Below are positions 7,460-56,093 of a stretch of DNA of 64,000 bases, one piece after another; within the stretch, counting starts at the first letter, position 1, and each line of letters starts with the position of its first letter. Under the pieces are notes generated by a model, which worked only from the letters and a program-made list of their open reading frames with translations, ran no database searches and was not told the origin of the DNA. Position numbers and translations under genes: made by a program. Location of the stretch: positions 1-64,000 of the forward strand of contig NZ_JASISY010000010.1 in the NCBI RefSeq assembly GCF_030063365.1. The letters run 5' to 3'. Origin of the DNA: Cryobacterium sp. PH29-G1 (GTDB lineage: Bacteria > Actinomycetota > Actinomycetes > Actinomycetales > Microbacteriaceae).

Positions 7460-8323
7460 GTGCTCGCAAACTACCTGATCGGCCTGCGCGAAGGTCTTGA
7501 GGCCGCCCTGATCGTGACGATTCTCATCGCCTACGTCGTGAAGATCAACCGGCGTGACGTCCTGCCACGCATCTGGCTCGGTGTCGGCCTGGCCGTGCTG
7601 CTTGCCCTCGGGATTGGCGCCCTGCTCACCTACGGCACCTACGGGCTGTCCTTCACCGCGCAGGAGACTATTGGCGGCGTGCTCTCCATCGTCGCCACCG
7701 GCTTAGTGACGTGGATGGTGTTCTGGATGCTGCGCACCGCGCGCGACCTCAAGGGCCATTTGCAGGGCCACATCGACAAGCACCTCGTCGGCGCCGGACT
7801 CGTTCTCGTGGCTTTTCTCGCTGTGGGCCGTGAAGGCATTGAAACAGCACTGTTCCTCTGGGCGGCCGTGCAGGCTACCGGTGCCACGACCATGCCCCTG
7901 CTCGGCGCGGCACTGGGCATCGTCACCGCGGTTGCGCTCGGCTGGCTCATTTACGCCGGCATGCTCAAGATCAACCTGTCGAAGTTCTTCACCTATACCG
8001 GCGCCATTCTCATTGTCGTCGCTGCTGGGGTGCTCTCCTACGGCGTACACGACCTGCAGGAGGCCGGCATCCTGCCCGGTCTGCATGCCCTCGCTTTCAA
8101 CGTGAGCGCCGCCGTTCCGCCGGACAGCTGGTACGGCACCCTGCTCAAAGGCACGCTCAACTTCTCCCCCGCCACCACCTGGCTGGAGATGTTCGCCTGG
8201 CTGGCCTATGCCCTACCCACCCTGACCCTTTTCATCAAAAAGAGCCGCGACGGCCGCCCCAGTATGCGCCCGGCACCGGCTGCGCCCACCTCGCCGGCGC
8301 CCGCGCCCGTCGTCGCGCACTAG
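7460..8323 (+). CDS. efeU: High-affinity iron permease EfeU (FTR1 family)
   Basis: The 287-residue polytopic membrane protein carries the two REGxE iron-binding motifs of the FTR1/EfeU family: REGLE at residues 10-14 and REGIE at about 124. Six or seven hydrophobic helices follow the usual pattern. It imports iron across the membrane after handling by EfeO and EfeB. The GTG start has AGGA just upstream. The C-terminus ends in an Ala/Pro-rich cytoplasmic tail. It is first in the efeUOB operon, 33 bases before efeO, and an iron box precedes it. Confidence 0.93.
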   Translation: MLANYLIGLREGLEAALIVTILIAYVVKINRRDVLPRIWLGVGLAVLLALGIGALLTYGTYGLSFTAQETIGGVLSIVATGLVTWMVFWMLRTARDLKGHLQGHIDKHLVGAGLVLVAFLAVGREGIETALFLWAAVQATGATTMPLLGAALGIVTAVALGWLIYAGMLKINLSKFFTYTGAILIVVAAGVLSYGVHDLQEAGILPGLHALAFNVSAAVPPDSWYGTLLKGTLNFSPATTWLEMFAWLAYALPTLTLFIKKSRDGRPSMRPAPAAPTSPAPAPVVAH

Positions 8324-8356
8324 CGTTCGTTTCCTACTCCCCACTGAAGGATCTCC

Positions 8357-9526: not shown

Positions 9527-9570
9527 AGCGCGCCGTGAAGCGCGCCGTGAAGCCCGCCGTGAAGCCCGCC
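9523..9570. repeat. 12-bp tandem repeat at the efeB start
   Basis: Four 12-bp units (two GTGAAGCGCGCC, two GTGAAGCCCGCC) span the start region of efeB. Each unit begins with a GTG in frame, so copy number changes would only add or remove four residues and one potential start. Confidence 0.9.
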
Positions 9571-27764: not shown

Positions 27765-30665
27765 CTACTCGAACGCCTCCGGCGGCGGACAGGCGCAGAC
27801 CAGGTTGCGGTCCCCGAAGGCGTTGTCGATGCGCCGCACCGGTGGCCAATACTTGTTGCGCACCAGCGACGCGAGCGGGTAGACCGCGGTAGCCCGGTCG
27901 TACGGATGCTCCCACTCCCCCTCGATCACGCACTGCGCGGTATGCGGCGCGTTGTGCAGCGGGTTGTCGTCGGCGCTCCAGCGGCCGGCGGCGACGGCAT
28001 CCGCTTCGGCTTTGATGGCGATCATGGCGTCAACGAAGCGGTCGATTTCGCCGAGATCTTCGCTCTCGGTGGGTTCGACCATGAGGGTACCGGCCACCGG
28101 AAAGCTCATCGTCGGCGAGTGGAAGCCATAGTCGACGAGGCGTTTTGCCACGTCGTCAACGGTGATCCCCGTGGCCGCGGTGAGCGGGCGCAGGTCGAGA
28201 ATGCACTCGTGCGCGACCAGGCCGTTTTCGCCCGAGTAGAGCAGCGGGTAGCTGTTCTCCAGACGTTTGGCAACGTAGTTGGCGGCGAGCACGGCGGCAC
28301 CGGTGGCCAGTTTGAGTCCGTCGATGCCCATCATGCGCACGTACGCCCAGGAGATGGGCAGGATGCTCGGGCTGCCGTAGGGGGCGGCCGAGACCGGCCC
28401 GCCGGCGTGCACGACGGTTGCGGTGGATCCGGCATTGCCGAGCAGGTAGTGCTCGTCGCTCTGCGCGAGCGGGTGCCCGGGCAAAAATGGTGCGAGGTGC
28501 GCCTTGGCCGCAACCGGGCCGACACCCGGGCCGCCGCCGCCGTGCGGGATACAGAAGGTCTTGTGCAGGTTCAGGTGCGAGACGTCGCCGCCGAAATCGC
28601 CGTAGCGGGCGAAGCCGAGCAGGGCGTTGAGGTTGGCACCGTCGACGTAGACCTGACCGCCGGCCGCGTGCACGGCCGCACAGATGGTCGCTACCTCATG
28701 CTCGTAAACGCCGTGGGTGGACGGGTAGGTGATCATGAGGGCGGCGAGGTTTTCGGCGTGTTCGGCAATCTTGGCGTGCAGATCGGCCAAATCAACGTTG
28801 CCCAGCTCGTCACAGGCCACAACGACGACACGCATGCCGGCCAGGGCAGCGGATGCCGCGTTGGTGCCGTGCGCGCTCGATGGGATCAGGCAGACTGTGC
28901 GACCCGTCTCACCGTTGGACCGATGAAACCCTGAAATAGCGAGGAGCCCGGCCAGTTCGCCCTGGCTGCCGGCGTTCGGCTGCAGCGACACGGAATCGTA
29001 GCCGGTGACATCGCTCAGCCAGGTTTCGAGCTGGCGCACGAGGTGCAGGTAGCCCTCAACATCCGCTGCGGGTGCGAAGGGGTGGATTCCGGCGAATTCG
29101 GGCCAGCTGACGGCCTCCATTTCGCTCGCCGCGTTGAGCTTCATGGTGCAGGAGCCCAGCGGGATCATGCCGCGGTCCAGCGCATAGTCGTAGTCGGCGA
29201 GCCGCTTGAGGTAGCGCATCATGCTGGTCTCGGATCGGTGAGTGTTGAACACCGGATGGGTCAGGTACTCGCTCACCCGCTCAAGCTCGACCGGCAGCCC
29301 GTGCTGCACGCTGTCGAAGTCGACGTGCCCGAACGCGTCGCGACCCCCGAAGGCTCCCACGACGTAGGACAGGTCGGCGAGCGTGGTGGTCTCATCGACC
29401 GACACGCTGATGGTGTTCGGGTCGACCAGACGCAGGTTGTAGCCGCTGGCCGCTGCCTTCATCACGACCTCGGCGGCACCCGCCGGCACGTTGATCTGGA
29501 ATGTGTCGAAGAACGCGTCACTGAGCACGTCGACGTCGATCGCCCGCAAGGCCACGACGAGCGCTCCGGCCCGCGCGTGCACCCGTTCGGCAATCGCCTT
29601 CAGGCCCTGCGGACCGTGGTAGACCGCGTACATGCCCGCCATGACGGCGAGCAGCACCTGGGCGGTACAGATGTTCGAGGTGGCTTTGTCGCGGCGAATG
29701 TGCTGTTCGCGTACCTGCAGGGCGAGGCGGTAGGCCGGGTGCCCGACCGAGTCAACGCTCACGCCGACGAGTCGGCCGGGGAGCTGACGTTCCAGCCCCT
29801 TCCGAACGGCCATATAGCCGGCGTGCGGTCCGCCGAACCCCATCGGCACCCCGAAGCGCTGGCTGGTTCCGACGGCAACATCGGCGCCGAGGTCGCCGGG
29901 CGACTTCAACAGGGTGAGGGCGAGCAGGTCGGCGGCCACGACGGCGAGCGCCCTGTTTTCGTGTGCGAGGTCAATCACGGACTGCGGGTTCCAGATGCGA
30001 CCGGATGCTGCCGGATACTGCACGAAGACACCGAAATAGTCGCCGAGATCATCGGCCGTGGTCTGCTCGTTCAGTGCCACGGGGGCGAGCTCAATACCGA
30101 GAGCGGCGGCGCGATTGGCGAGCAGCGCGTGGGTCTGCGGGAAGGCATCTGTGTCAACGATGAAGCGGCGGGAACCGGATTTGGAGGCGCGCCGGGCCAG
30201 CAGCATGCCTTCCACCACAGCCGTGGACTCGTCGAGCATCGACGCGTTGGCCACGGCCAGCCCGGTGAGGTCGGCGATCATGGTCTGAAAGTTCAGGAGG
30301 GCTTCGAGGCGGCCCTGCGAGATCTCCGGCTGGTACGGCGTATAGGCGGTGTACCAGCTGGGGTTCTCAAATACGTTGCGCTTGATCACGGCCGGCGTGA
30401 ACGTGTCGTAGTAGCCGAGGCCGATCATTGAACGTTTCACCGTATTGCGGCCGGCCAGGGCTCGAAGTTCGGCCACGGCCTCGTTCTCGCTCGCGGCGGG
30501 GGGCAGCGCGCTGTCCCCGTCCTGCCGAAACAGGTCGGCGTGGATCGAGGCGGGCATGGCAGCGGAAACGAGGTCTTCCACCGAGTCGTAGCCGAGCGTG
30601 GCGAGCATGTGGGACTGGGCGTCGGCATCGGTTCCGATGTGACGCTGCGTGAAGGCCTGGGTCAT
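27765..30665 (-). CDS. gcvP: Glycine decarboxylase (P protein)
   Basis: The 966-residue PLP enzyme decarboxylates glycine and passes the aminomethyl group to the lipoyl arm of GcvH. It starts [15 protein letters not shown]; both halves of the homodimeric-type P protein are fused. The PLP Lys lies in [18 protein letters not shown]. The ATG at 30663-30665 was chosen over an in-frame start 29 codons upstream because it matches the family N-terminus and follows the gcvH stop by eight bases. It is last in the gcvT-gcvH-gcvP operon controlled by the glycine riboswitch. Confidence 0.97.
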
Positions 30666-30673
30666 TGGGAGGT

Positions 30674-31045
30674 TTACTCCCCGACCAGGGCGGAATACTC
30701 GGCAAAGCTGAGCAGCGTGGGGAGGGTCTCGAATTCGACCTTGATCAGCCATCCCTCACCGAAGGGGTCGCTGTTGACAAGCTCGGGGGTGTCGATCACC
30801 TTGGCGTTGGTGGCAGTGACGGTGCCGTCCACCGGGGCGAACAGTTCGCCGACCGACTTGGTCGATTCGATCTCGCCCACCACGGTGCCGCCGGCAACGG
30901 TGCTGCCGACCTCGGGCAGTTCGACGAAGACGACGTCCCCGAGCTTCTCAGCGGCGTAGGCGGTGATGCCCACGGTCGCGACGCTGCCGTCGACCAGAAC
31001 CCACTCGTGCTCGGCGGTGTACTGCAGTTTCGATGTGTCTGTCAT
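30674..31045 (-). CDS. gcvH: Glycine cleavage system H protein
   Basis: The 123-residue lipoyl-carrier protein shuttles the aminomethyl intermediate between P, T and L proteins. The lipoylated Lys is in [11 protein letters not shown]. Length and HEWV start region ([11 protein letters not shown]) are standard. It lies between gcvT and gcvP in the operon. Confidence 0.97.
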
Positions 31046-31089
31046 GGTGTGCCTTTCACAGGTTTCACGGATTCAGAAAAGAAATCGGT

Positions 31090-32268
31090 CTACTTGACGC
31101 GCTTATAGAAGGGAAGAGATGTGACGGTGGCGGGAATGCGCGTGCCGCGAACGTCGACGTACACCTCGGTGCCGAGGCGGGCGAGGTCGGCGGTGACGTA
31201 TGCCATGGCGATCGGGTAGCCGAGGGTCGGCGACAGGGCACCGCTCGTGATCACTCCGTCGCTCGCCTCGGCATCGAGGCTGCGGAAGATCTCGTAGTCT
31301 GCGCGGCCAGCACGCTTGCCGGCCGACATCAGGCCCACCAGAACGGATGCCCCGACCGGTGGGCCGACCTCGCTCGCGCTGCGGCCGACGAAGTCGTTCT
31401 CCTTATTCAGATTGACCACGCGGCCAAGGCCGGCCTGCGCCGGGAAGGTGGTGAGGTTCAGTTCATGGCCGTAGAGCGGCATGCCGGCTTCCAGCCGCAG
31501 TGTGTCGCGACTAGCGAGACCGGCCGGAACCAGACCCTTGTCCGCACCCGCAACTACGAGCGCATCCCACAGTTCACGGGCTTGGGCGGGCGCGAGATAC
31601 AGCTCGAAGCCGTCTTCGCCGGTGTACCCGGTGCGGGCGACCAGCAGCGGCTGGCCGCGGAAGGTGGCATCCGATATGCGGTAATACTTCATGAAACGCA
31701 GGTCGGTGCCCACGGTCACGCCCTCGGTGGCATCAAGAATGGCGCGGGCGTTCGGACCCTGCACGGCGATGAGGGCGTAGTCGTCGCTCTGGTCGAGCAC
31801 GCTCACGGTGAAGTCGGCGGCACGCGCCAGGAGTGCGTCGAAGGCGGCGAACCGGTTGCCGGCGTTGGCCACGATGAGGAACCTGTCGTCGTCGAGGCGG
31901 TAGACGACGAGATCGTCGATGATGCCGCCGTTCTCGGCGAGCAGCAGGCTGTACTTGGCCTGGCCGAGTTCGATGACCGAGAGCTTGCCGGCCAGGGCGA
32001 AGTCAAGGTAGGCGGCGGCGTCCGGGCCCTCGACCAGGATCTCGGCCATGTGCGACAGATCGAACAGGCCGGCCTCGTGGCGCACCGCGTGGTGCTCAGC
32101 GAGGTCGCTCGAGTAACGCACCGGCATTTGCCACCCGGCGAAGTCGGTGAAGCTCGCACCGTTGTCGACGTGCGTTTGGTGCAGCGGCGAAAAACGCTCA
32201 GTGCCTACCAAAGACGGTGCGTCTTCGGAGGACGAGGGTGCGGAGGTGCGAGAATCGGCCGATGTCAT
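31090..32268 (-). CDS. gcvT: Aminomethyltransferase (T protein)
   Basis: The 392-residue enzyme releases ammonia and transfers the methylene group to tetrahydrofolate. Landmarks are FSPLHQTHVDNGA, GWQMPVRY, FDLSHMAEI with the folate-site residues, and YTGEDGFELYL. The N-terminal 20 residues are a Ser-rich extension. GGAGA precedes the ATG. It is the first gene of the operon, 72 bases downstream of the riboswitch. Confidence 0.96.
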   Translation of the reverse strand: MTSADSRTSAPSSSEDAPSLVGTERFSPLHQTHVDNGASFTDFAGWQMPVRYSSDLAEHHAVRHEAGLFDLSHMAEILVEGPDAAAYLDFALAGKLSVIELGQAKYSLLLAENGGIIDDLVVYRLDDDRFLIVANAGNRFAAFDALLARAADFTVSVLDQSDDYALIAVQGPNARAILDATEGVTVGTDLRFMKYYRISDATFRGQPLLVARTGYTGEDGFELYLAPAQARELWDALVVAGADKGLVPAGLASRDTLRLEAGMPLYGHELNLTTFPAQAGLGRVVNLNKENDFVGRSASEVGPPVGASVLVGLMSAGKRAGRADYEIFRSLDAEASDGVITSGALSPTLGYPIAMAYVTADLARLGTEVYVDVRGTRIPATVTSLPFYKRVK

Positions 32269-41574: not shown

Positions 41575-43521
41575 CTACGACTCCGTGACGGTGATACCGA
41601 AGCTTTTCAGCTTACGGTAAAGCGATGACCTCGCGATTCCCAGCGACTCGGCCGCGCGCATCCGGTTGCCTTCAGCCTTGTGCAGGGCACCGACGATGAG
41701 GTCGCGCTCGCCCGCTTCGAGCGCCGACAACACACGGGGCGCACCACCGTGGCAATAGGCCGGCAGATCTTCGGCTTGGATCGCTCCGACGGGTCGCGCG
41801 AGCAGGGCCGTGTCGAGCGCCTCTTCGAGCTGTCTGATATTGCCCGGCCAAGGATAGCGGGAGATGACCCGCATCGCTCCGGCACTCACGGTGGCGGGCC
41901 GCAACCCTGCCCGCCGCGCGAGAACCCGGGTGACGATGTCGGACAAATCGTTGATGCGATGCCGCAAGGGCGCCACCGTGACGGAGGTTTCGAAATGGTG
42001 CAGCAGGGCTGTGTACGGGCGCGCAGCGACCAGATCGGCCTGAAGATCGGGTTGCGACACCGTGACGGCGACGCCATCGGCGACGCCGTTCAACTCTTTG
42101 GCGGTCGTGGCGCGTGCGCTGAGAAAGGCGTCGAGTTGGGCGATGGCTGGTGGGTTGAGCCGATCAATATTGCGAAATATGTGAAGCGTGCACTGGCCGG
42201 CCGCACGCGAGGAGTCACGGTCGAGAAAATGTTGCAGGCCGTGGTCGTTCAGTTCATCGGCGCCGTAGACAGCGCTGCGACCGGTGGGCACGACATGACC
42301 AAACAGCTCCGCAACGAGCGATACCTTGCCGCCGCCCTCCTCGCCCAGAACGAGCAAAGCCGAGCCTGCAGTCAGCGCCGACACCACACTGGCCGATGCC
42401 CGCTTACCGAGCAACGATGACATGTCGCTAAGAATGGCCGCGACATCGTGCGATTCGCTCTCGCGCTCAGCTGACGGCGCCCGTGAGTGTTCGCTGAGCC
42501 GCGCGCTGGGTCGCGGCTCGCGCCTCGCAGGAGGCAGCAGGCTCAGACCGAACCCGGCCGCAGCAGCAGCCACGGCCACAGGCCCGACGCCGATTGCCGC
42601 CGCCGGCTCGGACACGATGTCAACGACCACGACAATACCGGCGACGTCGGGACCGACCACGACGCGCTTGCCGCGGATGTGCACGACTTTGCCGGAAGGG
42701 AGTTCAATCTCATCGATCGGCTGCCCCGGCGCGATCATCAGGTAGCGGGCGTGCTCGTGGATGGTCCACTGTTCATCGGGGGCGAACAGGCTCTGCGCCA
42801 CCGCGTTGCCCATGACGACAGTTCCGCCGATCGCCATGACGGCACCGCGGGTGTGGGCATCCACCCGCACGTACGCCTCGAACAGGGCCTGCTGCCGCTG
42901 ACTACGATCGACGAGCAGGTTGCGCTCGATCTCGTGGGCGGCCGAACGCACCAGGGATTGCATCAGCGGGCTGGAATGTTCGCTCAGGCAGCTGATGTCG
43001 AGCACCCCCTCGACCCGACCGGTCAGCGGGTCACGAATCGGACTCCCCGCGCAGGCGAACGGCTGCAAATGCTCCAGGTAATGCTCGGGACCCACAATAT
43101 ACAGCGGCTGGCCCGACTCCAGCACCGTGCCGATCCCGTTGGTTCCCACGTTGGCCTCGGCATAGTTGAAACCCGGAGCCAGCGACACGTCGTCGAGCAG
43201 GGTGCCGATCGTCCTGTCGGTTTCGGAGCGACTGAGGATTCTCGCCTTGTAGTCGGTGAGCACGATCGACAGCGGCATCTCGGCCATCTCGTCGCTCAGC
43301 CGGGCGATGACCGGTTCCGAGCAGCGCATAAGCCGGCCGGTGAGATCCAAATCGCCGTGAAACACCGCCTGAGATGATGCGGCATCGACTCCAGCCGAGA
43401 CGGATCGGTGCCAGGAGGCCGCCACCAGACCGGGAACCGATTGGGTTTCGGCGCGACCGAAGCGCAGAAAATCGGCGCGCGCAGCAGCAATCTTGATTCG
43501 CCGTTCGGCGATTCTGTGCAT
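41575..43521 (-). CDS. AcoR-type transcriptional activator (GAF, degenerate AAA+, Fis HTH)
   Basis: The 648-residue protein starts with a GAF sensory region (SIVLTDYKARILSRSET, NGIGTVLESGQPLYIVGPEHY). A poorly conserved AAA+ region follows, where Walker A reads GEEGGGKVS and the GAFTGA loop that contacts sigma-54 is missing. The C-terminus is a Fis-type HTH (MRAAESLGIARSSLYRKLKSFGI). AcoR-type proteins activate ketone and acetoin catabolism genes. It is divergent from the carboxylase operon, so it is its likely regulator and works without sigma-54. GGGAG is five bases before the ATG. Confidence 0.88.
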   Translation of the reverse strand: MHRIAERRIKIAAARADFLRFGRAETQSVPGLVAASWHRSVSAGVDAASSQAVFHGDLDLTGRLMRCSEPVIARLSDEMAEMPLSIVLTDYKARILSRSETDRTIGTLLDDVSLAPGFNYAEANVGTNGIGTVLESGQPLYIVGPEHYLEHLQPFACAGSPIRDPLTGRVEGVLDISCLSEHSSPLMQSLVRSAAHEIERNLLVDRSQRQQALFEAYVRVDAHTRGAVMAIGGTVVMGNAVAQSLFAPDEQWTIHEHARYLMIAPGQPIDEIELPSGKVVHIRGKRVVVGPDVAGIVVVVDIVSEPAAAIGVGPVAVAAAAAGFGLSLLPPARREPRPSARLSEHSRAPSAERESESHDVAAILSDMSSLLGKRASASVVSALTAGSALLVLGEEGGGKVSLVAELFGHVVPTGRSAVYGADELNDHGLQHFLDRDSSRAAGQCTLHIFRNIDRLNPPAIAQLDAFLSARATTAKELNGVADGVAVTVSQPDLQADLVAARPYTALLHHFETSVTVAPLRHRINDLSDIVTRVLARRAGLRPATVSAGAMRVISRYPWPGNIRQLEEALDTALLARPVGAIQAEDLPAYCHGGAPRVLSALEAGERDLIVGALHKAEGNRMRAAESLGIARSSLYRKLKSFGITVTES

Positions 43522-43582
43522 ATCGACTCCCTTGTGGACACTTCAAGCATGCGCCCTACCTGCCGCGAGCGCCAGCGGCGAT

Positions 43583-43601
43583 GTGTCCCAATCTGGGACA
43601 C
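43583..43601. promoter_or_regulatory. Palindrome between regulator and carboxylase operon
   Basis: GTGTCCCA-ATC-TGGGACAC is a perfect inverted repeat with 8-bp arms, midway in the 166-base divergent region. A related half-site GTGTCC lies near 43535-43541 on the minus strand. It is the best candidate binding site for the AcoR-type regulator. Confidence 0.6.
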
Positions 43602-43687
43602 GGCACGTTGCCACGGCGGAGGCACTGTTGATATCGAAGCTCCCCAGGGAGCATCGATCACTCACCACAAACCGCAAAGGAGCGCTC

Positions 43688-45544
43688 ATGGAACGATTGA
43701 TCAACATCGACAACGGTGGCACCCTCACCGACATTGTCGTCGCCAGCGGAACGGATTTCACGTTCACCAAGACACTCACGACCCCGGTCGATTTGTCCCA
43801 GTGTCTCTTCGACGCCATGACCAAGGCATCGGTTCAGATCTACGGCGAGGCGAACCTGCCCGACCTACTGCACTCGACCCAGCACATCCGCTATTCGTCA
43901 ACGCAGGGCACCAACGCACTCGTGCAACGCAAGGGCCCGCTGATCGGGCTCATCACCGACGATCCCGCGCTGCCCGAGTTGCTGGGAAAGTCGGAGGAGA
44001 CGGCCGCGCTGTTCACCGATCTGATCGGTAACCGAGTCGGCCTTGTCTCGGCCGACGGCGCCCCGGAGGAACTCGCCCAGCAGCTCGTCGCCGAGATCAA
44101 CCGACTGACCACGGCCGGCGCGGAGCGTCTCGTTGTCGCCGCAGGTAGCTCAGAGCGCGAGCACCTGTTCAAGCGCACCATGCTCAAGAATTTTCCCCGA
44201 CACCTTCTCGGCTCGGTGCCGATTCTGTTCTCCCGCGAATTCGCCTCGGACACGTCGCGACACCGTCAGGTCTGGTCGGGCATTCTCAATTCTTTTCTGC
44301 ACCCGACGGTGGAGCGTTTTCTGTACAGCGCCGAACACCGGCTGCGTGCCTACAAGGTAAAAAACCCTCTTCTGATCTACCGCAACGACGGCGCATCCTC
44401 TCGTGTTGCCAAGTCCGTGGCGCTGAAAACCTACTCTTCGGGACCGCGCGGTGGGCTTGAGGGCACGCGTGCCCTCGCCGAGGCCTATGGGCTCGACAAC
44501 GTGCTCATGATCGATGTCGGCGGCACAACAACGGATGTCGGCACCGTCTCCAACCGGGAGATCGCCGTCGACCGACGCGGATCGATCCAAGGTGTCGACA
44601 TCTCGTATGAGATGAGCGACGTACGTTCGACCGGAGTCGGCGGCAGCTCAATCATTGCCGTGCACGACGGCGAGATCACGGTCGGACCGGAAAGTGTCGG
44701 AGCCGCGCCCGGACCGGCCTGCTTCGGTTTCGGTGGCACCTCGGCCACGATCACCGACGTCAACCTGCTTCTCGGAGTACTCGACCCCGCCACTTACCTG
44801 AACGGTGAAATGGCCCTCGACGCCGAGCGGTCGCGCGTGGTCATCATGAAGACCGTCGCCGACCCGCTGGGAATCAGCCTCGAGGAGGCGCTGATCCGCA
44901 TGGAGGCCAGCTACTCCAGCCACCTGGCACAGTCCTTCGCCGACCTCGTGAGCCCCACCGGCGACACAACGCTCGCCGCTTTCGGTGGCGGCGGGCCGAT
45001 GAGCGCCTGCAGTGCCGCGCGCATTGCCGGCGTACGCACCGTGCTGGTACCGCGGCTCGCCGCGGTGTTCTCGGCCTACGGCATCAGCTTCTCCGACATC
45101 GCCCAGTCGTACGAAACCCACGTGACCGGGTTCTCGGATGCCGAACTGAGCGCGGTGCGCATCGCGATGGAAGCGGATGCCGGCAAGGACATGTTCCAGG
45201 AAGGCCATGACCTCAGCGAATGCGAGCTGGATTGGACGACCATCGTCGAAGACGGCGAAGAGATCCTCTCCCTCAAGGCCACCTTCCAGTTGCCGCACCC
45301 GACCATCGACAGTGGTGCAGCCGCAGCGGCGAGCGCCGCCGTGGCCTCCGACACCCGACAGGTGCGCTCCACGGCCACCCAGATCGACAGCACCCCGGTC
45401 TACCTGCTCGACGACCAGAAGCCCGGTGCCACGGCGGCCGGGCCGGCCATCGTCGAGGGCCCCTTCTTCACTGCACGTGTGCCGCTTGGCTGGACCCTCA
45501 CGGTCTCCGCTGCCGGCGACCTGCAGCTCACCGACACGTTCTAA
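43688..45544 (+). CDS. HyuA-like carboxylase subunit (hydantoinase A/oxoprolinase family), first copy
   Basis: The 618-residue protein belongs to the ASKHA-fold hydantoinase A family that phosphorylates ketone or lactam substrates. Motifs are NIDNGGTLTDIVV, YSSTQGTNALVQRKGP, MIDVGGTTTDVG, GPACFGFGGTSATITDVNLLLG and AFGGGGPM. I start at the ATG at 43688, six bases after AGGAG. It is about 90 residues shorter than the second HyuA-like subunit encoded at 46031-48157. Three-subunit acetone carboxylases have only one such subunit, so this extra copy points to a five-subunit enzyme of the acetophenone carboxylase type. The estimated mass is about 66 kDa. Confidence 0.88.
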   Translation: MERLINIDNGGTLTDIVVASGTDFTFTKTLTTPVDLSQCLFDAMTKASVQIYGEANLPDLLHSTQHIRYSSTQGTNALVQRKGPLIGLITDDPALPELLGKSEETAALFTDLIGNRVGLVSADGAPEELAQQLVAEINRLTTAGAERLVVAAGSSEREHLFKRTMLKNFPRHLLGSVPILFSREFASDTSRHRQVWSGILNSFLHPTVERFLYSAEHRLRAYKVKNPLLIYRNDGASSRVAKSVALKTYSSGPRGGLEGTRALAEAYGLDNVLMIDVGGTTTDVGTVSNREIAVDRRGSIQGVDISYEMSDVRSTGVGGSSIIAVHDGEITVGPESVGAAPGPACFGFGGTSATITDVNLLLGVLDPATYLNGEMALDAERSRVVIMKTVADPLGISLEEALIRMEASYSSHLAQSFADLVSPTGDTTLAAFGGGGPMSACSAARIAGVRTVLVPRLAAVFSAYGISFSDIAQSYETHVTGFSDAELSAVRIAMEADAGKDMFQEGHDLSECELDWTTIVEDGEEILSLKATFQLPHPTIDSGAAAAASAAVASDTRQVRSTATQIDSTPVYLLDDQKPGATAAGPAIVEGPFFTARVPLGWTLTVSAAGDLQLTDTF

Positions 45545-45572
45545 TTTGTTTCCCAAGGAAGGTACAAACAAA

Positions 45573-46028
45573 ATGCGCGTTCCCATGACCGAATACCTGC
45601 TCATCGACCTCGACACCGAACGGTGGATCTGCCGCATCTGCGCTCACGACTTTGGTGACGCCCGCGGCAACTACAAGGAAGGCACCCTGGTCTACGACCG
45701 GGACCCCACGGAGATTCACCCCCCGGTGATTGACCCGGAAAAGTACGAGTTCACCTTCTCTCCCGACCCGACCTTCTGCCGCATCCTGGAGTTCTACTGC
45801 CCCACCTGCGGCACCCAGATCGAGGCCGAGTACCTGCCGCCGGGGCACCCCCCGACCGTTGACATGCTCTGGGACATCGACTCGCTGCGCGAAAAGTGGG
45901 AAATCCACGGTGGCAACCCCGAAGAGGTCATCAATTACGGTCCGGGCGAGAACGCCGAGACCGACCTCAGCGCCCAGTTTGATACCTCGTCCGCACATTC
46001 CCACGCACACCGCACCGAAGGGCACTGA
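45573..46028 (+). CDS. Ketone carboxylase gamma-type small subunit
   Basis: The 151-residue protein matches the acetone carboxylase gamma (AcxC) family. It has CRICAHDFGDARGNYKEG and ILEFYCPTCGTQIEAEYLPPG, two CxxC pairs that probably bind zinc. The start ATG at 45573 has AAGGAAGG ten bases upstream. The His-rich tail (SHAHRTEGH) is uncommon. It lies between the two HyuA-like genes with a 2-base gap to the next. Confidence 0.9.
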   Translation: MRVPMTEYLLIDLDTERWICRICAHDFGDARGNYKEGTLVYDRDPTEIHPPVIDPEKYEFTFSPDPTFCRILEFYCPTCGTQIEAEYLPPGHPPTVDMLWDIDSLREKWEIHGGNPEEVINYGPGENAETDLSAQFDTSSAHSHAHRTEGH

Positions 46029-46030
46029 CC

Positions 46031-48157
46031 GTGAAACGAATTTCCGTAGACATCGGCGGCACATTCAGCGACTGCTTCTTCGTCTGGGACGACGTGTACA
46101 TCGAGTCGAAGGCACTCACCACCCATCACAACCTCGCCCTCGGCTTCAACGAAGCCCTCGACCGGGCCTGTGAGCGGGCCGGCATCACACGGGAAACCGC
46201 GCTCAAAGAAGTCGACTCCGTGCGCTACGCGACCACCCTCGGCACCAACGCCCTGATCGAGGGCAAGGGACCGCGGGTCGCCGCTATTGTTACCCACGGC
46301 TTCGAAGACACCATCCCGCTCTCCCGCGGCCGCGGCTACGGCGAAGGACTCGACGGCGTCAAGCAGGGCGATATGCCCGATGCCCAGCGTCCCGAACCGC
46401 TCGTGCCGCGCCGGCTCATCCGTTCGGTCAAGGAACGCATCGACTCGGTCGGCGAGGTGCTCGTGCCGTTGATGTACGACGATGTGCGCACCCAGGTGCG
46501 CGAACTCGTTGACAACGGTGCAGAGGCCATCGTCATTGCCTTGACCAACGCCACCGAGAACTCGGTGCACGAGGACCGCATTCTCGAGATCATTCTCGAC
46601 GAGTACCCCTCGCACGAGCTCGGGTCGATTCCGGTACTGCTCAGCAGCCAGGTCTCGGGCCGCAAGGGCGAATATGTGCGGGCGATGGCCACCATCGTCG
46701 ACGCTTTTCTGCACCAGACGATGTTTTTCGCTCTCAACCAGCTCTCGAACAACCTGCGCGATTCCGGCTATGAAAAGCCCATGCTTGTCATCCACAACTC
46801 GGGCGGCATGGCGCAGCCCAATTCAACGGATGCCCTGCAAACAATTCACTCCGGACCGATCGCCGGCGTCGGCGCAGCCCAGCACCTGTCGGAATCGACC
46901 GGGCTCGGCGACGTCGTGTCGATGGACATGGGCGGTACCTCGTTCGACATCGGGCTGGTACCCGAGGGAGGGGTGCGGCACTACGACTTCCAACCCACCA
47001 TCGGGCGTTGGATGGTCTCGGCACCGATGATCCACCTCAACACCCTCGGCGCCGGCGGCGGCTCCATCGCCGCTTACAACCGCATTCACCACGCGATTCA
47101 GATCGGACCGGAGTCGGCCGGTAGTGACCCGGGCCCGGCCTGCTACGACCGCGGCGGATTGCGCCCCACCGTGACCGATGCCGACCTTGTGCTCGGCTAT
47201 CTCGACCCGGACAACTACGCCAACGGTCACATCAAGCTCAACAAGAAGCGCTCGATCTACGTGATTGACGAGACGCTCAGCGACGAGCTCGACCTGGACG
47301 CGGTCGAAGTTGCCAAGGTGATCAAGAAAACCGTTGACGAGCAGATGGCGATCGGCATCGAGAAGGAGCTGCGTTCGCGTGGCGGCCTGATCGAGGATTA
47401 CACCATGCTCGCCTACGGCGGCAACGGCCCGTTGCACGCCTGCGGCATCGCGACCAGCGCCGGCATTAGCCGCATTCTGTTTCCCCCGTTCGCCTCCGTA
47501 TTCTCGGCGCTCGGTGCCGGCAACATGCGTCCACTGCACATCCACGAACGCAGCGCCTACGTCGTGCTCTACGAGGCGATCAAGCGCAGCCTGTACAGCG
47601 AGTACGCGGCACTGAACGGGTACATCGAAGAACTCGAAGCCAAGGGTGCCGAAGACCTGGTGCGTCAGGGCTACGACCGCGCCGATGTGCGCTACCGCCT
47701 CGAAATGGACATGCGCTACGGCAACCAGCTCGTCACCACGGCCGTCGCGTTCGACATCAACCGGGTCAATGGGGTCGCCGATGTGCTGCACCTGATCAAA
47801 ACGTTCTCCGAAATATTCGGCGAGCGCTACGGCGAGGGCACGCAGGCACCTGAGGCCGGCATCCGGGTGCAGACGATTCGAGTGGCGTCGTTCATCGAGG
47901 GCGAAGTCATTAAGTTCGAGTCGATCGAGATCGGCGGCGAAAAGAGCAAACCAGCCCCGGTCTCACACCGTACGGTGCACTTCACCAGCATTGCCGGCCC
48001 GGTCGACACCCCCGTTTACGATGCCGAGGCGCTCCACCACGAATACGTGATTCACGGTCCGGCGATTGTCACGACCGAGAACACGACCTATCTGGTGGAA
48101 CCGGGCTGGCGCCTGGAGCCGACCGTGCAGGGAGCGGTATGGCTGCTCAGCGACTAA
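46031..48157 (+). CDS. HyuA-like carboxylase subunit, second copy (acetone carboxylase beta type)
   Basis: The 708-residue protein is a full-length hydantoinase A family subunit close to acetone carboxylase beta. Motifs are SVDIGGTFSDCFFVWDD, GTNALIEGKGPRVA, SMDMGGTSFDIGLV, GPACYDRGGLRPTVTDADLVLGYLDP and AYGGNGPLHACG. It supplies the nucleotide-binding and substrate-phosphorylating activity. The GTG start at 46031 follows the small-subunit stop by 2 bases. The mass (about 77 kDa) fits both acetone carboxylase beta and the 75-kDa acetophenone carboxylase subunit. Confidence 0.92.
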   Translation: MKRISVDIGGTFSDCFFVWDDVYIESKALTTHHNLALGFNEALDRACERAGITRETALKEVDSVRYATTLGTNALIEGKGPRVAAIVTHGFEDTIPLSRGRGYGEGLDGVKQGDMPDAQRPEPLVPRRLIRSVKERIDSVGEVLVPLMYDDVRTQVRELVDNGAEAIVIALTNATENSVHEDRILEIILDEYPSHELGSIPVLLSSQVSGRKGEYVRAMATIVDAFLHQTMFFALNQLSNNLRDSGYEKPMLVIHNSGGMAQPNSTDALQTIHSGPIAGVGAAQHLSESTGLGDVVSMDMGGTSFDIGLVPEGGVRHYDFQPTIGRWMVSAPMIHLNTLGAGGGSIAAYNRIHHAIQIGPESAGSDPGPACYDRGGLRPTVTDADLVLGYLDPDNYANGHIKLNKKRSIYVIDETLSDELDLDAVEVAKVIKKTVDEQMAIGIEKELRSRGGLIEDYTMLAYGGNGPLHACGIATSAGISRILFPPFASVFSALGAGNMRPLHIHERSAYVVLYEAIKRSLYSEYAALNGYIEELEAKGAEDLVRQGYDRADVRYRLEMDMRYGNQLVTTAVAFDINRVNGVADVLHLIKTFSEIFGERYGEGTQAPEAGIRVQTIRVASFIEGEVIKFESIEIGGEKSKPAPVSHRTVHFTSIAGPVDTPVYDAEALHHEYVIHGPAIVTTENTTYLVEPGWRLEPTVQGAVWLLSD

Positions 48158-48209
48158 GCGTTCCCACCATCCCCGTCACACTTCGCATAAGCAAAGGAGC
48201 TTGAGCACC

Positions 48210-50546
48210 ATGACACTGACAACTGACGAATTCGTACCAAGCAGTGGAAACGACGACGGCGCAGCCCAGCTGCTGACCGAGCAGGAGCAGCAGTGGGTCG
48301 ACAAGTTCATGGACGAGACCACTCTCTTCCTCGGACCTGACCCGGCCATTATGCGCCACCACGAAATCATGCCGCGCACCGCCTACGAGGAGAAGTGCAT
48401 CTCCGAGGGCATCGACCCGCTGGAGATCGACCGGATCCGCAAGCGCCTGGCCGGCGCCCTCGACGAAGCGTTCGAGATGTGCGAGAGCATGGGCGCCGCT
48501 CCCGGCGCCAAATGGGCGGACCTGTCCTGCGCGGTCTATACCGCCGAGGGTGACGTCACCTATCTCTCCAATCGTGGCGTCATCGCGTTCTCCTCGGTGC
48601 TGCACCACCCCATCCGCTACATCATGAAGAACTGGAAGGATGAGCCCACCGTCGGTATCAACGAGGGTGACGGTTTCTTCCACAACGACTCCCGCTTCGG
48701 TATGGTGCACAACACCGACCAGTCGATGCTGGTGCCGGTCATTCGTGGCGGAGTCATCATCGCCTGGGTTGGCGCGACCATTCACGAGGGTGAAAACGGC
48801 GCCTGCGAGCCGGGCGGTATGCCCAGCGGCTCCGAAACACCTTTCGATGACGGCTTGCGGGCCTCGCCGATCAAGATCGTGGAAAAGGGCCACCTGCGGC
48901 GCGACCTGCTGACCTTTCTGCAGCACTCCACCCGCGACCCGAAACTCATGCTCGCCGACATCAAGGTGAAAATGGGCGCCGTGCGCCGCATCATGGACAC
49001 CGTCGACCGTCTCATCGACGAGGTCGGGCAGGAGACATTCGTTGCCTCCCTGCGCGTCACCGTGGAAGACGTTGAGACCGAGGTGCGCCGCCGCATCGGC
49101 GAACTGCCCGACGGCACGGTTACGTTCAACCAGTTCGTCGACTCGACGCTGAAAGAAAACATCCTGATCAAGTTCGCCTGCAAGATCACCATCAAGGGCG
49201 AGCGTATGATCGTGGACCTCACCGGTACCGGCCCCGAAATTCTCAACCGCGCCATCAACTCCCCGCTCGCCTCGACCAAGGCGTTCATGGTGCAGGCGAT
49301 TCTGTCGTACTGGTGGCCCGACCTGCCACGCTCCACCGGAGCGATGAGCCCGATTGAGGTCATCACCGAAGAGCACAGCTGGGCGGATGCCGGGTACGAC
49401 GCCCCCGTCGGCCAATCACTGCAGGCCTCCTTCCGCGGTTTCTCCGCCTTGCAGAGCGCGTTCGCCAAGATGCAGTTCTCGGCACCGCAGAAATACTCCA
49501 ACGTCGTCGCGCCCTGGTTCAACCAGATCAACGACTTTCTCTGGGGCGGCACCACCCAAAACGGCGAACAGGTCGGTAACCTGTGCGCCGACCTGAACGG
49601 CATGGGCGGCGGAGCGAAGGCTTTCCGTGATGGTGAGGACGCCGTTGCTCCGCTGTTCTGCGCGATGGCCGACATCGGCGAGCAGGAAGTCATGGAAGAG
49701 GAGGTGCCCTTCCTGCAACTCGTCAGTAAGCGTCTCGTTCGTGACAATCAGGGCTTCGGCAAGTTTCGCGGAGGCATGGGCTACGAAATGATGGTCGCCT
49801 CGCGCGGCACACCCAGCTGGGGCTTCATGACCGTCACGAGCGGATCGAAGTTCTCCTCCGTGCCCGGCATGTTCGGTGGCTACGGTTGCCCCGTGTACCC
49901 CCTCGCGATGGTGAAAAATGTCAACATCTACGACATCATCAAAAAGGATCCGACGCAGTTCAACCTCTCGATGGAACGAGTGATGAACGAGCAGCCGTTT
50001 GAGGGCGGCGACTACCAGTCCTCGCACATGGGGTTGCAGTTCGACGTGGCGAAGGAGGGCGAGCTCTACATGATCGCCCAGGGAGCGGGCGGCGGCTACG
50101 GCGATGTGCTGGAGCGCGACCCGGAGCTCGTGGTGACCGACCTGGAACTCGACCGCATTAGCGCCCACACGGCGTCGACCATGTACGGCGTGGTCTGGGA
50201 GCCCGGCACCTACGTCGTGCACGAGGAGCAGACCGCCCAGTTGCGGGCGCAGATGCGGCGCGATCGCATTTCGCGCGGCACTCCCTACAAGGAGTTCGTG
50301 CAGAAGTTCGTGCAGGAAGAGCCGCCGGCCGAGCTGCACTACTTCGGTTCCTGGGGCCAGGACGACGACGAAAACCTGATCGCCACCCACTGGGGTGGAG
50401 CAGAACCGGAACGGGTCAAGGGCAAGCTCGCCGAGCTCCCGCTGATCATGGTTCCGGACCGTCGGGTACTCAAGATCACCAAGCTCGAGGCCCGCGTGCG
50501 GGAACTCGAAAAGAAGTACGGCGAAGTCGTCGCGCACAAGTCCTAA
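48210..50546 (+). CDS. HyuB-like carboxylase subunit (acetone carboxylase alpha type)
   Basis: The 778-residue protein is of the hydantoinase B/oxoprolinase family and close to acetone carboxylase alpha. Landmarks are RTAYEEKCISEGIDP, FSSVLHHPIRYIMKNW, GDGFFHNDSRFGMVHNTDQ with likely metal ligands, and a long C-terminal region ending KLEARVRELEKKYG. It carries the carboxylation site where the enol and carbonyl phosphate meet. I start at the ATG at 48210 with AAAGGAG 11 bases upstream; the open frame begins 48 codons earlier inside the previous gene. Confidence 0.92.
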   Translation: MTLTTDEFVPSSGNDDGAAQLLTEQEQQWVDKFMDETTLFLGPDPAIMRHHEIMPRTAYEEKCISEGIDPLEIDRIRKRLAGALDEAFEMCESMGAAPGAKWADLSCAVYTAEGDVTYLSNRGVIAFSSVLHHPIRYIMKNWKDEPTVGINEGDGFFHNDSRFGMVHNTDQSMLVPVIRGGVIIAWVGATIHEGENGACEPGGMPSGSETPFDDGLRASPIKIVEKGHLRRDLLTFLQHSTRDPKLMLADIKVKMGAVRRIMDTVDRLIDEVGQETFVASLRVTVEDVETEVRRRIGELPDGTVTFNQFVDSTLKENILIKFACKITIKGERMIVDLTGTGPEILNRAINSPLASTKAFMVQAILSYWWPDLPRSTGAMSPIEVITEEHSWADAGYDAPVGQSLQASFRGFSALQSAFAKMQFSAPQKYSNVVAPWFNQINDFLWGGTTQNGEQVGNLCADLNGMGGGAKAFRDGEDAVAPLFCAMADIGEQEVMEEEVPFLQLVSKRLVRDNQGFGKFRGGMGYEMMVASRGTPSWGFMTVTSGSKFSSVPGMFGGYGCPVYPLAMVKNVNIYDIIKKDPTQFNLSMERVMNEQPFEGGDYQSSHMGLQFDVAKEGELYMIAQGAGGGYGDVLERDPELVVTDLELDRISAHTASTMYGVVWEPGTYVVHEEQTAQLRAQMRRDRISRGTPYKEFVQKFVQEEPPAELHYFGSWGQDDDENLIATHWGGAEPERVKGKLAELPLIMVPDRRVLKITKLEARVRELEKKYGEVVAHKS

Positions 50547-50558
50547 TATTCACTAGCT

Positions 50559-50606
50559 GACCCGCGGCTGCGGGGCCGTCTCCTTACGGCCCCGCAGCCG
50601 CGGGTC
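50559..50606 (+). terminator. 21-bp stem-loop between HyuB-like gene and fifth gene
   Basis: Arms 50559-50579 and 50586-50606 are perfectly complementary over 21 bp with a 6-base loop, followed by a T-rich tract of TTTG repeats. It looks like a strong terminator yet the next gene starts 38 bases later in the same direction, so partial read-through or a separate promoter must serve that gene. Confidence 0.85.
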
Positions 50607-50644
50607 GAACGTTTTGTTTGTTTGTTTGATTGATGGGAGAAACC

Positions 50645-51448
50645 GTGACGATTTCGCTAAATGAGCTCCTGGCCGTGCCAACGTCGGGCCGCCGTCGGGC
50701 CGTGGTGCTGGACAGCCACGATTATGCGCAATCCGTGTTCTTGCAGGGCAAGCCCGTGCCGTGGCAGGAACCGATGGCGTACGCGAATTTTTTCGGCCAG
50801 GTTCAGGGCGTTCTGAAGTCTGACCTTGCATTGCTGAGCCTCGATCGATTTTACGCCGAGCGTGTAGCGGCCGACCCGAAACTACAAGCATCAATGGGTG
50901 CCAAGTCCCGTACCGGCTATGCACTCCGCACCCTGCTCAACGATGCCGACACGACCGCGTTCGTCATCGAACTCGCCACGGTCTTCAGTCAGACCCAGCG
51001 GGTGCCGGTCGTGCTGCAAATTCCGTCGCCCATGCAATGGTTGGCGCGCACGCATCCGTTTTCGGGAGCGACCGACGTGTCGGGGCTCGATGCCGACAAC
51101 GCCGAAAACGCCTCCATGTACGTCGCCGACTGGCTACGCGGATTCGCCGCACTGCCACTGATGGCGGTCATGCTCGACGATCGCGGGCCCACGGTCGGAA
51201 CGGCACCGGTGCCCCTGTCGACGTATTCGCCAATCGCGAATGTCACCGATCATTACCGGTGGGCACTCGCCCAGCGCCACGATGACCGGGTCGAGCTGCA
51301 CGGCAGTGAGCTTCGCGGCGCCGTGATCGGAGCGGATTTCTGGTCGACCGACACGGCAGCGCTGCCGGACGGCGATTTTCTCGTGGGTGAAGTGCCGCTC
51401 GCGGCCGTTCCGGAGCAAGTCCTCTCCCGCATCTCGGCGCTGGACTAG
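50645..51448 (+). CDS. Unrecognised 267-residue protein, fifth gene of the carboxylase locus
   Basis: The protein has no signal peptide or membrane helix. It contains VVLDSHDYAQSVF, VPVVLQIPSPMQWL, DWLRGFAALPLMAVMLDD and VTDHYRWALAQR, which might fit a TIM-barrel-like fold, but I cannot assign a family. I chose the GTG at 50645, four bases after GGGAGA; the TTG at 50630 or ATG at 50633 would also be possible. The size of about 29 kDa and position after the HyuB-like gene resemble the 34-kDa fifth subunit (ApcE) of acetophenone carboxylase, which is a comparison by context only. Its stop overlaps the convergent DUF2461 gene by four bases. Confidence 0.75.
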   Translation: MTISLNELLAVPTSGRRRAVVLDSHDYAQSVFLQGKPVPWQEPMAYANFFGQVQGVLKSDLALLSLDRFYAERVAADPKLQASMGAKSRTGYALRTLLNDADTTAFVIELATVFSQTQRVPVVLQIPSPMQWLARTHPFSGATDVSGLDADNAENASMYVADWLRGFAALPLMAVMLDDRGPTVGTAPVPLSTYSPIANVTDHYRWALAQRHDDRVELHGSELRGAVIGADFWSTDTAALPDGDFLVGEVPLAAVPEQVLSRISALD

Positions 51449-54230: not shown

Positions 54231-54369
54231 GCGTTACCTCCGGGAGTCTCTCCTAGATTGACACAACCACACCGCTCCGGTGGCGCAATTCTGGCCAACA
54301 CCCGATCAGGATGATTCGCTAGGTTGGTCTTCAACCGTTTCGATTGCCCCGCATTTCACGAGGAGCTCC

Positions 54370-55464
54370 ATGCCCATCACCGTCCAAGGCGCGATCGCCC
54401 GTTCCAAGGGTGCTCCCGTCGAGCTCACCGACATCGTCATTCCCGATCCCGGACCGGGCGAGGTCGTCGTCGACATCGACACCTGCGGCGTCTGCCACAC
54501 CGACTTCCATTACAAGGAGGGCGGGATCAATGACGACTTCCCGTTTCTGCTCGGCCACGAAGCCGCCGGCCGGGTAAGCATCATCGGTGCGGGCGTCACG
54601 CACGTTTCTGTCGGCGATTTCGTCGTGCTTAACTGGCGGGCCGTCTGCGGCGACTGCCGCGCCTGCAAGCGGGCCGAGCCCTGGTATTGCTTCAACACCT
54701 TTAATGCCGCGCAAAAGATGACCCTCACCGACGGCACCGAGCTCAGTCCGGCGCTGGGTATCGGCGCATTCGCCGAGAAGACCCTCGTGCACGAACGCCA
54801 GTGCACCAAGGTGAACCCCAACGCGGACCCCGCCGCGGTCGGTCTCCTCGGCTGCGGCATTATGGCCGGCATCGGCGCAGCCATGAACACCGGTCATGTC
54901 TCCCCCGGCAACTCGGTGGCCGTGATCGGCTGTGGCGGCGTCGGCGACGCAGCCGTGGTCGGTGCCGCTCTCGCCGGGGCATCCACCATCATCGCGATCG
55001 ACCGCGACGCCAAGAAGCTCAATAAGGCCACCGAGTTCGGCGCCACGCACATTATCGACTCCTCAGGGCTCGACGAGGCCGGCGTGGTTGCGGCCGTTCA
55101 GGCGCTCACCGGCGGCTTCGGCGCCGACGTCGTCATCGACGCGGTCGGCCGCCCCGAAACCTGGCGGCAGGCGTTCTACGCCCGCGACCTGGCCGGCACC
55201 GTCGTTCTCGTTGGTGTGCCGACGCCCGACATGATGCTCGAGATCCCTCTGCTTGACGTGTTCGGCCGCGGCGGCTCGCTCAAGTCCTCCTGGTACGGCG
55301 ATTGCCTGCCGGAACGCGACTTCCCGATGCTCACGGAGCTTTACCTGCAGGGCAAGCTGCCGCTGGCCGATTTTGTGAGCGAACGTATCGGAATCGAAGA
55401 CATCGAGGCGGCCTTCGCCAAGATGGCCTCCGGCGACGTGCTGCGTTCCGTGGTGGTGCTGTAA
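54370..55464 (+). CDS. S-(hydroxymethyl)mycothiol dehydrogenase
   Basis: The 364-residue zinc alcohol dehydrogenase oxidises the adduct of formaldehyde and mycothiol. The catalytic zinc ligands are in CGVCHTDFH and GHEAAG; the structural zinc site is [15 protein letters not shown]; the NAD fold is [29 protein letters not shown] matches the mycothiol-dependent group rather than the glutathione one. AGGAG lies just before the ATG. It is coupled to the MBL gene with a one-base overlap, the usual partner in actinobacteria. Confidence 0.92.
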
Positions 55465-56093
55465 TGACCGCCCGCATCGACCATCTGGTGACCGCGGGCA
55501 CGTTCAGCCTCGACGGCGGAACGTGGGCATTGGAGAACAACGTCTGGATCATCGGCGACGACACCGAGTGTGTCGTCATCGACGCCGCCCATGATGCGGA
55601 TGCCATCCTCGCGGCCGTCGGCAATCGCCGACTGCTCGGCATTCTCAGCACGCACGGGCACAACGACCACATCGGAGCCGCGGGAGCGGTCGCCGAAGCA
55701 GCGGATGCTCCAATCTATTTGCACCCCGATGACCGGATGCTGTGGGACGTCATCTACCCGCAGGATGCGCCGGTTCGCGACTTTGCCGACGGAGCGCGCA
55801 TCAGCGTGGCCGGCGTCGAGCTGCAGGTCATCCACACCCCCGGGCACTCGCCGGGTTCGGTCTGCTTGTACGCTCCGGCGTTGGGCACCCTGTTCAGCGG
55901 GGACACACTGTTTCACGGCGGACCGGGTGCGACCGGCCGCTCGTACAGTGACTTCCCCACGATCATCGAATCAATCAGCACGAGGCTGCTCACCCTGCCC
56001 GCCGACACCGTCGTGAACACCGGCCACGGCGAGTCGACCAGTATCGGGGCCGAGGCCCCGGATCTGGCCGACTGGATCGCGCGCGGACACTAG
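55464..56093 (+). CDS. MBL-fold hydrolase, formaldehyde module
   Basis: The 209-residue protein has the metallo-beta-lactamase motif STHGHNDHIGAAG (HxHxDH), the later His in HTPGHSPGS, Asp in SGDTLF and His in TGHGEST. Its position after the mycothiol dehydrogenase suggests it hydrolyses the S-formylmycothiol product, inferred from repeated co-occurrence in actinobacteria. The ATG overlaps the dehydrogenase TAA by one base. Confidence 0.92.
   Translation: MTARIDHLVTAGTFSLDGGTWALENNVWIIGDDTECVVIDAAHDADAILAAVGNRRLLGILSTHGHNDHIGAAGAVAEAADAPIYLHPDDRMLWDVIYPQDAPVRDFADGARISVAGVELQVIHTPGHSPGSVCLYAPALGTLFSGDTLFHGGPGATGRSYSDFPTIIESISTRLLTLPADTVVNTGHGESTSIGAEAPDLADWIARGH

Follow-up and report, generated by a model that had tools for sequence, protein, structure and literature searches.

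Which enzyme is encoded by an operon that combines two kinase-type subunits, a zinc protein, a metal subunit and a fifth protein of no recognized family, and which ketone does it use? The question was raised by a 64,000-nt stretch of Cryobacterium sp. PH29-G1 DNA (assembly GCF_030063365.1, contig NZ_JASISY010000010.1, positions 1–64,000, forward strand; hereafter the window), in which five same-strand genes occupy 43688–51448 and a regulator gene diverges from them on the opposite strand. The five genes probably encode a biotin-free, ATP-using enzyme of the acetophenone carboxylase (Apc) type, which is predicted to have five subunits, to convert acetone, as the likely substrate, and CO2 into acetoacetate, and to have its fifth subunit, epsilon, tuned by an RNA hairpin. 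The features are listed below.

41575–43521, minus strand: divergent regulator of 648 aa, with GAF, AAA_lid_14 and HTH_8 as its only Pfam domains
43688–45544, plus strand: 618-aa ApcA-like alpha' subunit of the ASKHA kinase type, predicted to phosphorylate bicarbonate (best PDB match and motifs)
45573–46028, plus strand: gamma subunit, ApcB-like, four-cysteine zinc protein of 151 aa (best PDB match and invariant cysteines)
46031–48157, plus strand: 708-aa ApcC-like alpha subunit of the ASKHA kinase type, predicted to phosphorylate the ketone (best PDB match and motifs)
48210–50546, plus strand: beta subunit, ApcD/HyuB-like, 778 aa, predicted C–C bond-forming metal subunit (best PDB match and metal site)
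50559–50606, plus strand: RNA hairpin with a 21-bp stem and a 6-nt loop, just 5' of the epsilon gene (predicted fold and z-score)
50645–51448, plus strand: 267-aa epsilon subunit with a GTG start, its predicted fold ApcE-like, a UroD-like barrel (structure model and fold search)

All six genes were confirmed at the positions and sizes given by an earlier sequence-only reading of this DNA. Its domain content also held: by Pfam, two proteins are of the Hydantoinase_A type, one is a Hydantoinase_B protein, one is an Acetone_carb_G zinc protein and one has no family. The first four genes are separated by 28, 2 and 52 nt, and a 98-nt gap precedes the fifth, whose GTG start at 50645 follows a GGGAG motif; we infer that the five genes form one transcript. 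Their order, alpha'-gamma-alpha-beta-epsilon, is that of apcABCD(E) as given in PMC5214803 (PMC-numbered articles are cited here from excerpts). The five-subunit layout proposed by that reading was thus borne out as the Apc-type gene set of a biotin-free ketone carboxylase. According to PMC5214803, Apc-like clusters comprise four or five genes, the fifth being very divergent; at the time of its writing, only a single Apc-branch enzyme had been characterized biochemically, and the role of epsilon was left open there.

The best PDB matches of all four core subunits were chains of the Aromatoleum aromaticum Apc core (5L9W): chain b (ApcA) for alpha' (E 2e-78), chain C for gamma (E 1e-32, vs. 2e-8 for the gamma subunit of acetone carboxylase, Acx), chain B for alpha (E 2e-142 vs. 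2e-82 for Acx) and chain A for beta (E 1e-80 vs. 4e-41). The bit scores against Apc and Acx were 268 vs. 125 for A, 116 vs. 37 for B, 479 vs. 281 for C and 275 vs. 144 for D. The proteins of the canonical Apc-type loci L106/L107 were 29–37% identical to those of the window for A, C and D and 49–56% for B. The best NCBIfam models were likewise ApcA, ApcB, ApcC and ApcD, but every equivalog cut-off was missed (320.9 of 1250, 134.6 of 250, 526.9 of 1500 and 299.9 of 1500 bits, respectively), and NF042977 had no match anywhere in the genome. These scores, far below the cut-offs, indicate that the enzyme is of the Apc type, yet is not acetophenone carboxylase as curated. They bear on an alternative in which the same machine carboxylates acetophenone-like aryl ketones and delivers benzoylacetate-type products to an aromatic pathway. 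The best characterized relatives of all core subunits, ApcA-D, and a fifth subunit modelled with the ApcE fold speak for this alternative, and the four missed cut-offs speak against it; with the evidence given below, we consider it unlikely.

The motifs of the core subunits are those of the Apc machinery. The alpha' subunit contains DNGGTLTD, DVGGTTTD and GAAPGPAC and, as in ApcA, no KERIDxxG. The alpha subunit contains DIGGTFSD, DMGGTSFD and GSDPGPAC, as well as KERIDSVG at 134. Both ASKHA subunits thereby carry phosphate-1, phosphate-2 and adenosine motifs, and an R/KERiDsxG segment that is present in alpha and absent from alpha' is an Apc signature (PMC5214803). In gamma, C20, C23, C76 and C79 were invariant across 19 sequences. 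The conserved metal site of beta (D104, H167, D170 and H192) aligned both with the Apc metal-site candidates (PMC5214803) and with the Mn ligands of Acx, Glu89, His150, Asp153 and His175 (PMC5543143, PMC8453981); D/H/D/H is shared with Aromatoleum Apc, whereas two of three Acx rows read E/H/D/H and the third, L125, reads E/Q/D/H. One property of beta weighs against assignment to the Apc type: its 778 aa match the Acx counterpart (776) and not the Apc counterpart (684), so that it is about 94 residues longer than the Aromatoleum subunit.

Phylogenetic analysis comprised an alpha tree (27 rows, mixture model), a beta tree (26 rows) and, for alpha', a FastTree of 63 rows. In the alpha tree, the window clade joined canonical Apc and two further Apc-like clusters (L108 and L109) at 100/99, apart from Acx and from the HyuA proteins of the same genome. 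Grouping of the window clade with Acx was rejected by the approximately unbiased (AU) test (p = 0.0056), to which a long-branch warning applies; for a grouping with canonical Apc that leaves out L108/L109, the result was borderline (p = 0.0507). Together with the better PDB scores against Apc, the rejection overturns the earlier view that the individual subunits look closer to acetone carboxylase. The beta tree did not settle how its four deep lineages branch: Apc, Acx, L108/L109 and the window clade. The 618-aa protein, which might have proved a stand-alone hydantoinase, grouped with ApcA at 0.97. The same FastTree joined a single Acx row to the window alpha clade with support of 1.0; this join vanished once the alignment had been enlarged by three Acx and three hydantoinase-type rows and the mixture model was applied, and it was then rejected by the AU test. 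The distinct branch suspected from the sequence alone is supported by the alpha and beta trees: judged by sequence comparison, the window clade, found in Actinomycetota, Pseudomonadota and Helicobacter, forms a deep branch apart from the others, with ketone-pocket residues of its own. Within it, two groupings seen in both the alpha and beta trees suggest horizontal transfer: Marinobacter with Rhodococcus, and Psychrobacter together with Helicobacter and Corynebacterium.

The trees also bear on whether an ATP-dependent hydantoinase or lactamase system has been misread as a carboxylase. The HyuA and HyuB folds are shared, and the genome holds three other HyuAB-type loci. However, hydantoinase/5-oxoprolinase clusters consist of two genes without a gamma subunit (PMC5214803), vs. 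five genes with gamma in the window, and the HyuA and HyuB proteins encoded elsewhere in the genome grouped away from those of the operon in both trees. A misreading of this kind is highly improbable. As a separate observation, the three further HyuAB-type loci (L001–L003; L126–L128) had no zinc-subunit match within 1.5-kb flanks.

PMC5214803 names seven positions of the Apc ketone pocket, at which the alpha subunit of the window has T72, I272, H273, P276, I324, H335 and L336. Among 15 clade members compared, 13 have this code, TIHPIHL, whereas L121 and L122 differ. Three Apc rows had LFNPIQT, three of four Acx rows had LIVPMAM, and L125, which is more distant and Acx-like, had LMIPMHL. The replacement of Apc F281, N282, Q344 and T345 by I, H, H and L in these 13 members is a second argument against an aryl ketone as the substrate.

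The 267-aa protein had no match in Pfam, in NCBIfam or, by phmmer, in the PDB. A profile of its family gave nothing significant against the PDB (best E 0.35), and profile-profile alignment (hhalign) with four ApcE relatives gave a probability of 0.9%; in the alignment path, P129 stands opposite P147 and N199 opposite N213, all four residues being invariant within their respective families. Its AlphaFold model reached a predicted local distance difference test (pLDDT) score of 94.8, and the top match in a fold search with this model was the solved ApcE (9FOU). The protein is therefore very likely the epsilon subunit, with a UroD-like barrel as modelled. Compared with the uroporphyrinogen decarboxylase and MtaA methyltransferase fold, it is 8–13% identical in alignments and 70–90 residues shorter. 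For the ApcE relative L097, a 4-row alignment yielded a structure model of poor quality (pLDDT 50.5), which was discarded. In L108 and L109, a stretch of about 1 kb between the gamma and alpha genes gave weak matches of 36 and 32 bits to the model for ApcE, and both clusters are followed by an AMP-ligase gene and a thiolase-type gene; judging by these matches, the epsilon gene of this lineage may lie at another place.

Related loci were collected by scanning a genome collection with a 19-row zinc-subunit alignment, and the counts out of 80 given here refer to the 80 top-ranking loci among the 374 that were confirmed. The epsilon gene (E) lay downstream of the beta gene (D) in 68 of the 80, which, together with the modelled ApcE fold, argues against the concern that the 267-aa protein belongs to an unrelated family. 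The full order A-B-C-D-E was present in 68 loci of three phyla, a few of them with partial matches (e.g., L050 and L058) and three with an inserted alcohol dehydrogenase (ADH) gene. This recurrence across three phyla places the five-gene set far beyond chance. Five of the 12 loci without epsilon stop at or before its place at contig ends (L005, L021, L023, L057 and L073). The other seven are Helicobacter loci (L048, L051, L052, L056, L059, L061 and L062), in which neither an unfiltered profile search nor tblastn with Helicobacter E proteins found anything significant (best E 0.22 for the latter). The remaining Helicobacter loci, four of 11 (L045, L049, L050 and L058), carry the gene; beside them, the seven without it offer natural test cases for the role of epsilon.

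Among 396 Actinomycetota genomes, the zinc-subunit model matched 20, two at 250 bits or more and 18 at 30–180 bits. The epsilon model matched exactly the two high-scoring genomes, in the second of which E lies 4.6 kb downstream, although the sample is small. The Rhodococcus copies of the operon are plasmid-borne, e.g., on pRHL2 of R. jostii RHA1, whose zinc subunit is labelled “acetone carboxylase subunit gamma,” whose three large subunits are labelled “hydantoinase/oxoprolinase” or “hydantoinase B/oxoprolinase,” and whose epsilon is a “hypothetical protein.” Deeper five-gene relatives occur on plasmids of Neorhizobium and Cupriavidus; in another deeper relative, on haloarchaeal plasmid L122, the epsilon profile match was weak (28 bits).

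The genes flanking the operons (10 kb or less, shorter at contig ends) were typed by tblastn with representatives, which were themselves typed by Pfam and NCBIfam. Matches of the scoA and/or scoB type (3-oxoacid CoA-transferase) flanked 31 of the 80 loci, including L042, the source of the query; five of the 31 hold one of the two genes alone (L025, L031, L037, L039 and L047). In nine loci (L034, L042, L060, L064, L067, L068, L074, L078 and L081), the scoA match begins 2–18 nt after E. Thiolase, scoA and scoB lie just upstream of the operon in all 11 Helicobacter loci, and the same arrangement is described for H. bizzozeronii (PMC3234257); the Helicobacter thiolase is of the acetyl-CoA C-acyltransferase type (TIGR01930, above cut-off). 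A zinc ADH gene lies between D and E in three Streptomyces loci (L067, L068 and L083), and an ADH-type gene at least 50% identical to a Mycolicibacterium query was near the operon in 10 of the 80 loci, including L077, the source of the query. The Cryobacterium genome itself contains a pair of scoAB-type genes, from which an IclR-type gene diverges whose product is 55% identical to the IclR protein beside the L029 operon, and an ADH homologue of 68% identity (next best 34%); both the pair and the ADH gene lie in neighbourhoods other than that of the operon.

The CoA-transferase and ADH genes at the operons of relatives make acetone the likely substrate. The sequence-only reading had left the substrate open; these neighbours narrow the choice toward acetone. 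They also count against an aryl-ketone substrate: relatives of the window have genes for 3-oxoacid-type CoA-transferases and thiolases beside the operon, whereas a gene for benzoylacetate-CoA ligase is part of the Aromatoleum operon (PMC4729919), and an AMP-ligase-like frame comes after the ApcE-bearing clusters L099 and L100, as judged by eye. Another small or methyl ketone, such as butanone, hydroxyacetone or a longer 2-ketone, could be the true substrate and acetone a side substrate, since a CoA-transferase/thiolase context suits any 3-oxoacid and the ADH family is broad. Against this, scoAB and a TIGR01930 thiolase in Helicobacter fit acetoacetyl-CoA, and the nearly identical pocket code across phyla argues for one common substrate, so that we give such a ketone only a small chance.

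In summary of its relations to known systems, the window shares with Aromatoleum Apc (5L9W core, 9FOU ApcE) the order of the five genes, the pair of kinase-type subunits, a four-cysteine gamma and, by model, a fifth subunit of the same fold; it differs in its pocket residues and in an epsilon that is undetectable by sequence. With AcxABC of Xanthobacter and Aromatoleum, and its H. pylori homologue (PMC2244623), it shares the presumed conversion of acetone into acetoacetate and the HyuA, HyuB and zinc subunits. A canonical Acx operon on an Ancylobacter plasmid is likewise followed by an adjoining CoA-transferase subunit gene. Acx differs in having three genes (kinase, beta-type and gamma), one kinase subunit, no epsilon and other pocket residues. 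The “acetophenone carboxylase” cluster published for H. bizzozeronii (PMC3234257) belongs to the window clade and lies beside scoAB and thiolase genes; it was described with four genes, whereas L058, from another strain of the species, carries the epsilon gene. Among the titles and abstract openings listed in searches of open-access literature on acetone and acetophenone carboxylases, none described this five-gene actinobacterial branch.

By analogy with Apc biochemistry, alpha would phosphorylate the enol of the ketone and alpha' would phosphorylate bicarbonate, converting two ATP into two ADP per carboxylation, unlike the single-kinase, AMP-forming Acx. The activated pieces would then be joined inside a closed complex that requires the detachable epsilon subunit. 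As the gene neighbourhoods of relatives suggest, the acetone would often derive from 2-propanol, and the acetoacetate would pass to a 3-oxoacid CoA-transferase and a thiolase. The hairpin before the epsilon gene would lower or separate epsilon expression, leaving the core in excess over its helper subunit.

The hairpin at 50559–50606 has a predicted energy of -59.4 kcal/mol (z = -7.3). For a survey of its counterparts, 68 loci and the window were considered, L035, L058, L067, L068 and L083 were left out for gap length, and 64 gaps of 30–320 nt were scored, each over its initial 160 nt. Many of these come from close relatives: 14 Cryobacterium, 8 Arthrobacter and 7 or 8 Rhodococcus. One locus assigned to Gloeocapsa by taxonomy is, by elimination, the Rhodococcus locus L040, which the genus counts take into account. 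The D-E gaps reached z ≤ -3 in 46 of the 64 (window included) and a stem of at least 12 pairs, with one mismatch allowed, in 45. Among equal-length control stretches, the corresponding numbers were 1 and 0 inside D and 8 and 6 after E. In a weaker control, with shorter gaps, the A-B, B-C and C-D gaps of at least 25 nt (66, 32 and 37 cases) contained no stem of 12. At least one long stem came from each of 15 named genera, and in the examples compared the structure is conserved while the sequence varies between genera. In the Streptomyces loci with an inserted ADH gene (L067, L068 and L083), stems of 17, 13 and 18 pairs lie within 160 nt before E and not after D, which indicates that the hairpin stays with the epsilon gene. 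Cases with a weak hairpin or none include Helicobacter, Corynebacterium (L029), L010, L040 and L066. A consensus terminator scan omitted the D-E hairpin, whose tail does not seem to satisfy the T-run rule, and we do not regard it as a proven terminator; the same simple scan found no sigma-70-like promoter.

The divergent regulator combines a GAF sensor, an AAA lid and a Fis-type helix-turn-helix, and Pfam did not recognize a sigma-54 interaction domain. Sigma54_DBD had no match in the genome, while the same search was positive in 4 of 14 control genomes. The designation as an AcoR-type activator is thus to be qualified with respect to sigma-54. A homologue adjoins the operon in many actinobacterial loci; in Arthrobacter, Corynebacterium, Brevibacterium and others, a MalT/LuxR-type regulator is nearby instead.

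Elsewhere in the window, at 54280–56093, a gene for S-(hydroxymethyl)mycothiol dehydrogenase (match to TIGR03451 above cut-off) precedes one that, judged by eye, likely encodes a metallo-hydrolase; the pair probably serves formaldehyde detoxification. EfeU, EfeO and deferrochelatase/peroxidase genes at 7460–10866 form an EfeUOB-type iron-uptake operon, and the glycine cleavage genes gcvP and gcvT lie at 27765–32268. At many places within 36336–57910, long antisense frames lie opposite real genes, as is typical of high-GC DNA, and are unlikely to be genes.

Acetone carboxylase activity has been published for R. rhodochrous B276 (cited in PMC5059922), and the window-type genes may be linked to it. 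In 18 genomes of the Rhodococcus genus of L055, full-length matches to Acx beta did not exceed 31% identity (short fragments reached 44%), and the epsilon gene was found in four. Somewhat short of even confidence, we tentatively propose that biotin-free ketone carboxylases have a third, widespread branch, represented by an enzyme of five subunits with two kinases that would perform the Acx reaction by Apc chemistry with a sequence-cryptic, UroD-like epsilon dosed by an RNA hairpin, and that in actinobacteria such as Rhodococcus, with no close Acx relative in these 18 genomes, would be the source of the B276 activity. The clade combines a distinct pocket code, a conserved epsilon with the same fold by prediction, seven Helicobacter loci in which epsilon was not detected, and plasmid copies in Rhodococcus. 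It thereby opens two questions to direct testing: the role of epsilon and the identity of the acetone-carboxylating genes of actinobacteria. Database labels such as the hydantoinase/oxoprolinase and “hypothetical protein” entries of R. jostii RHA1 are corrected by it, and the hairpin may represent a simple device for setting subunit ratios within an operon.

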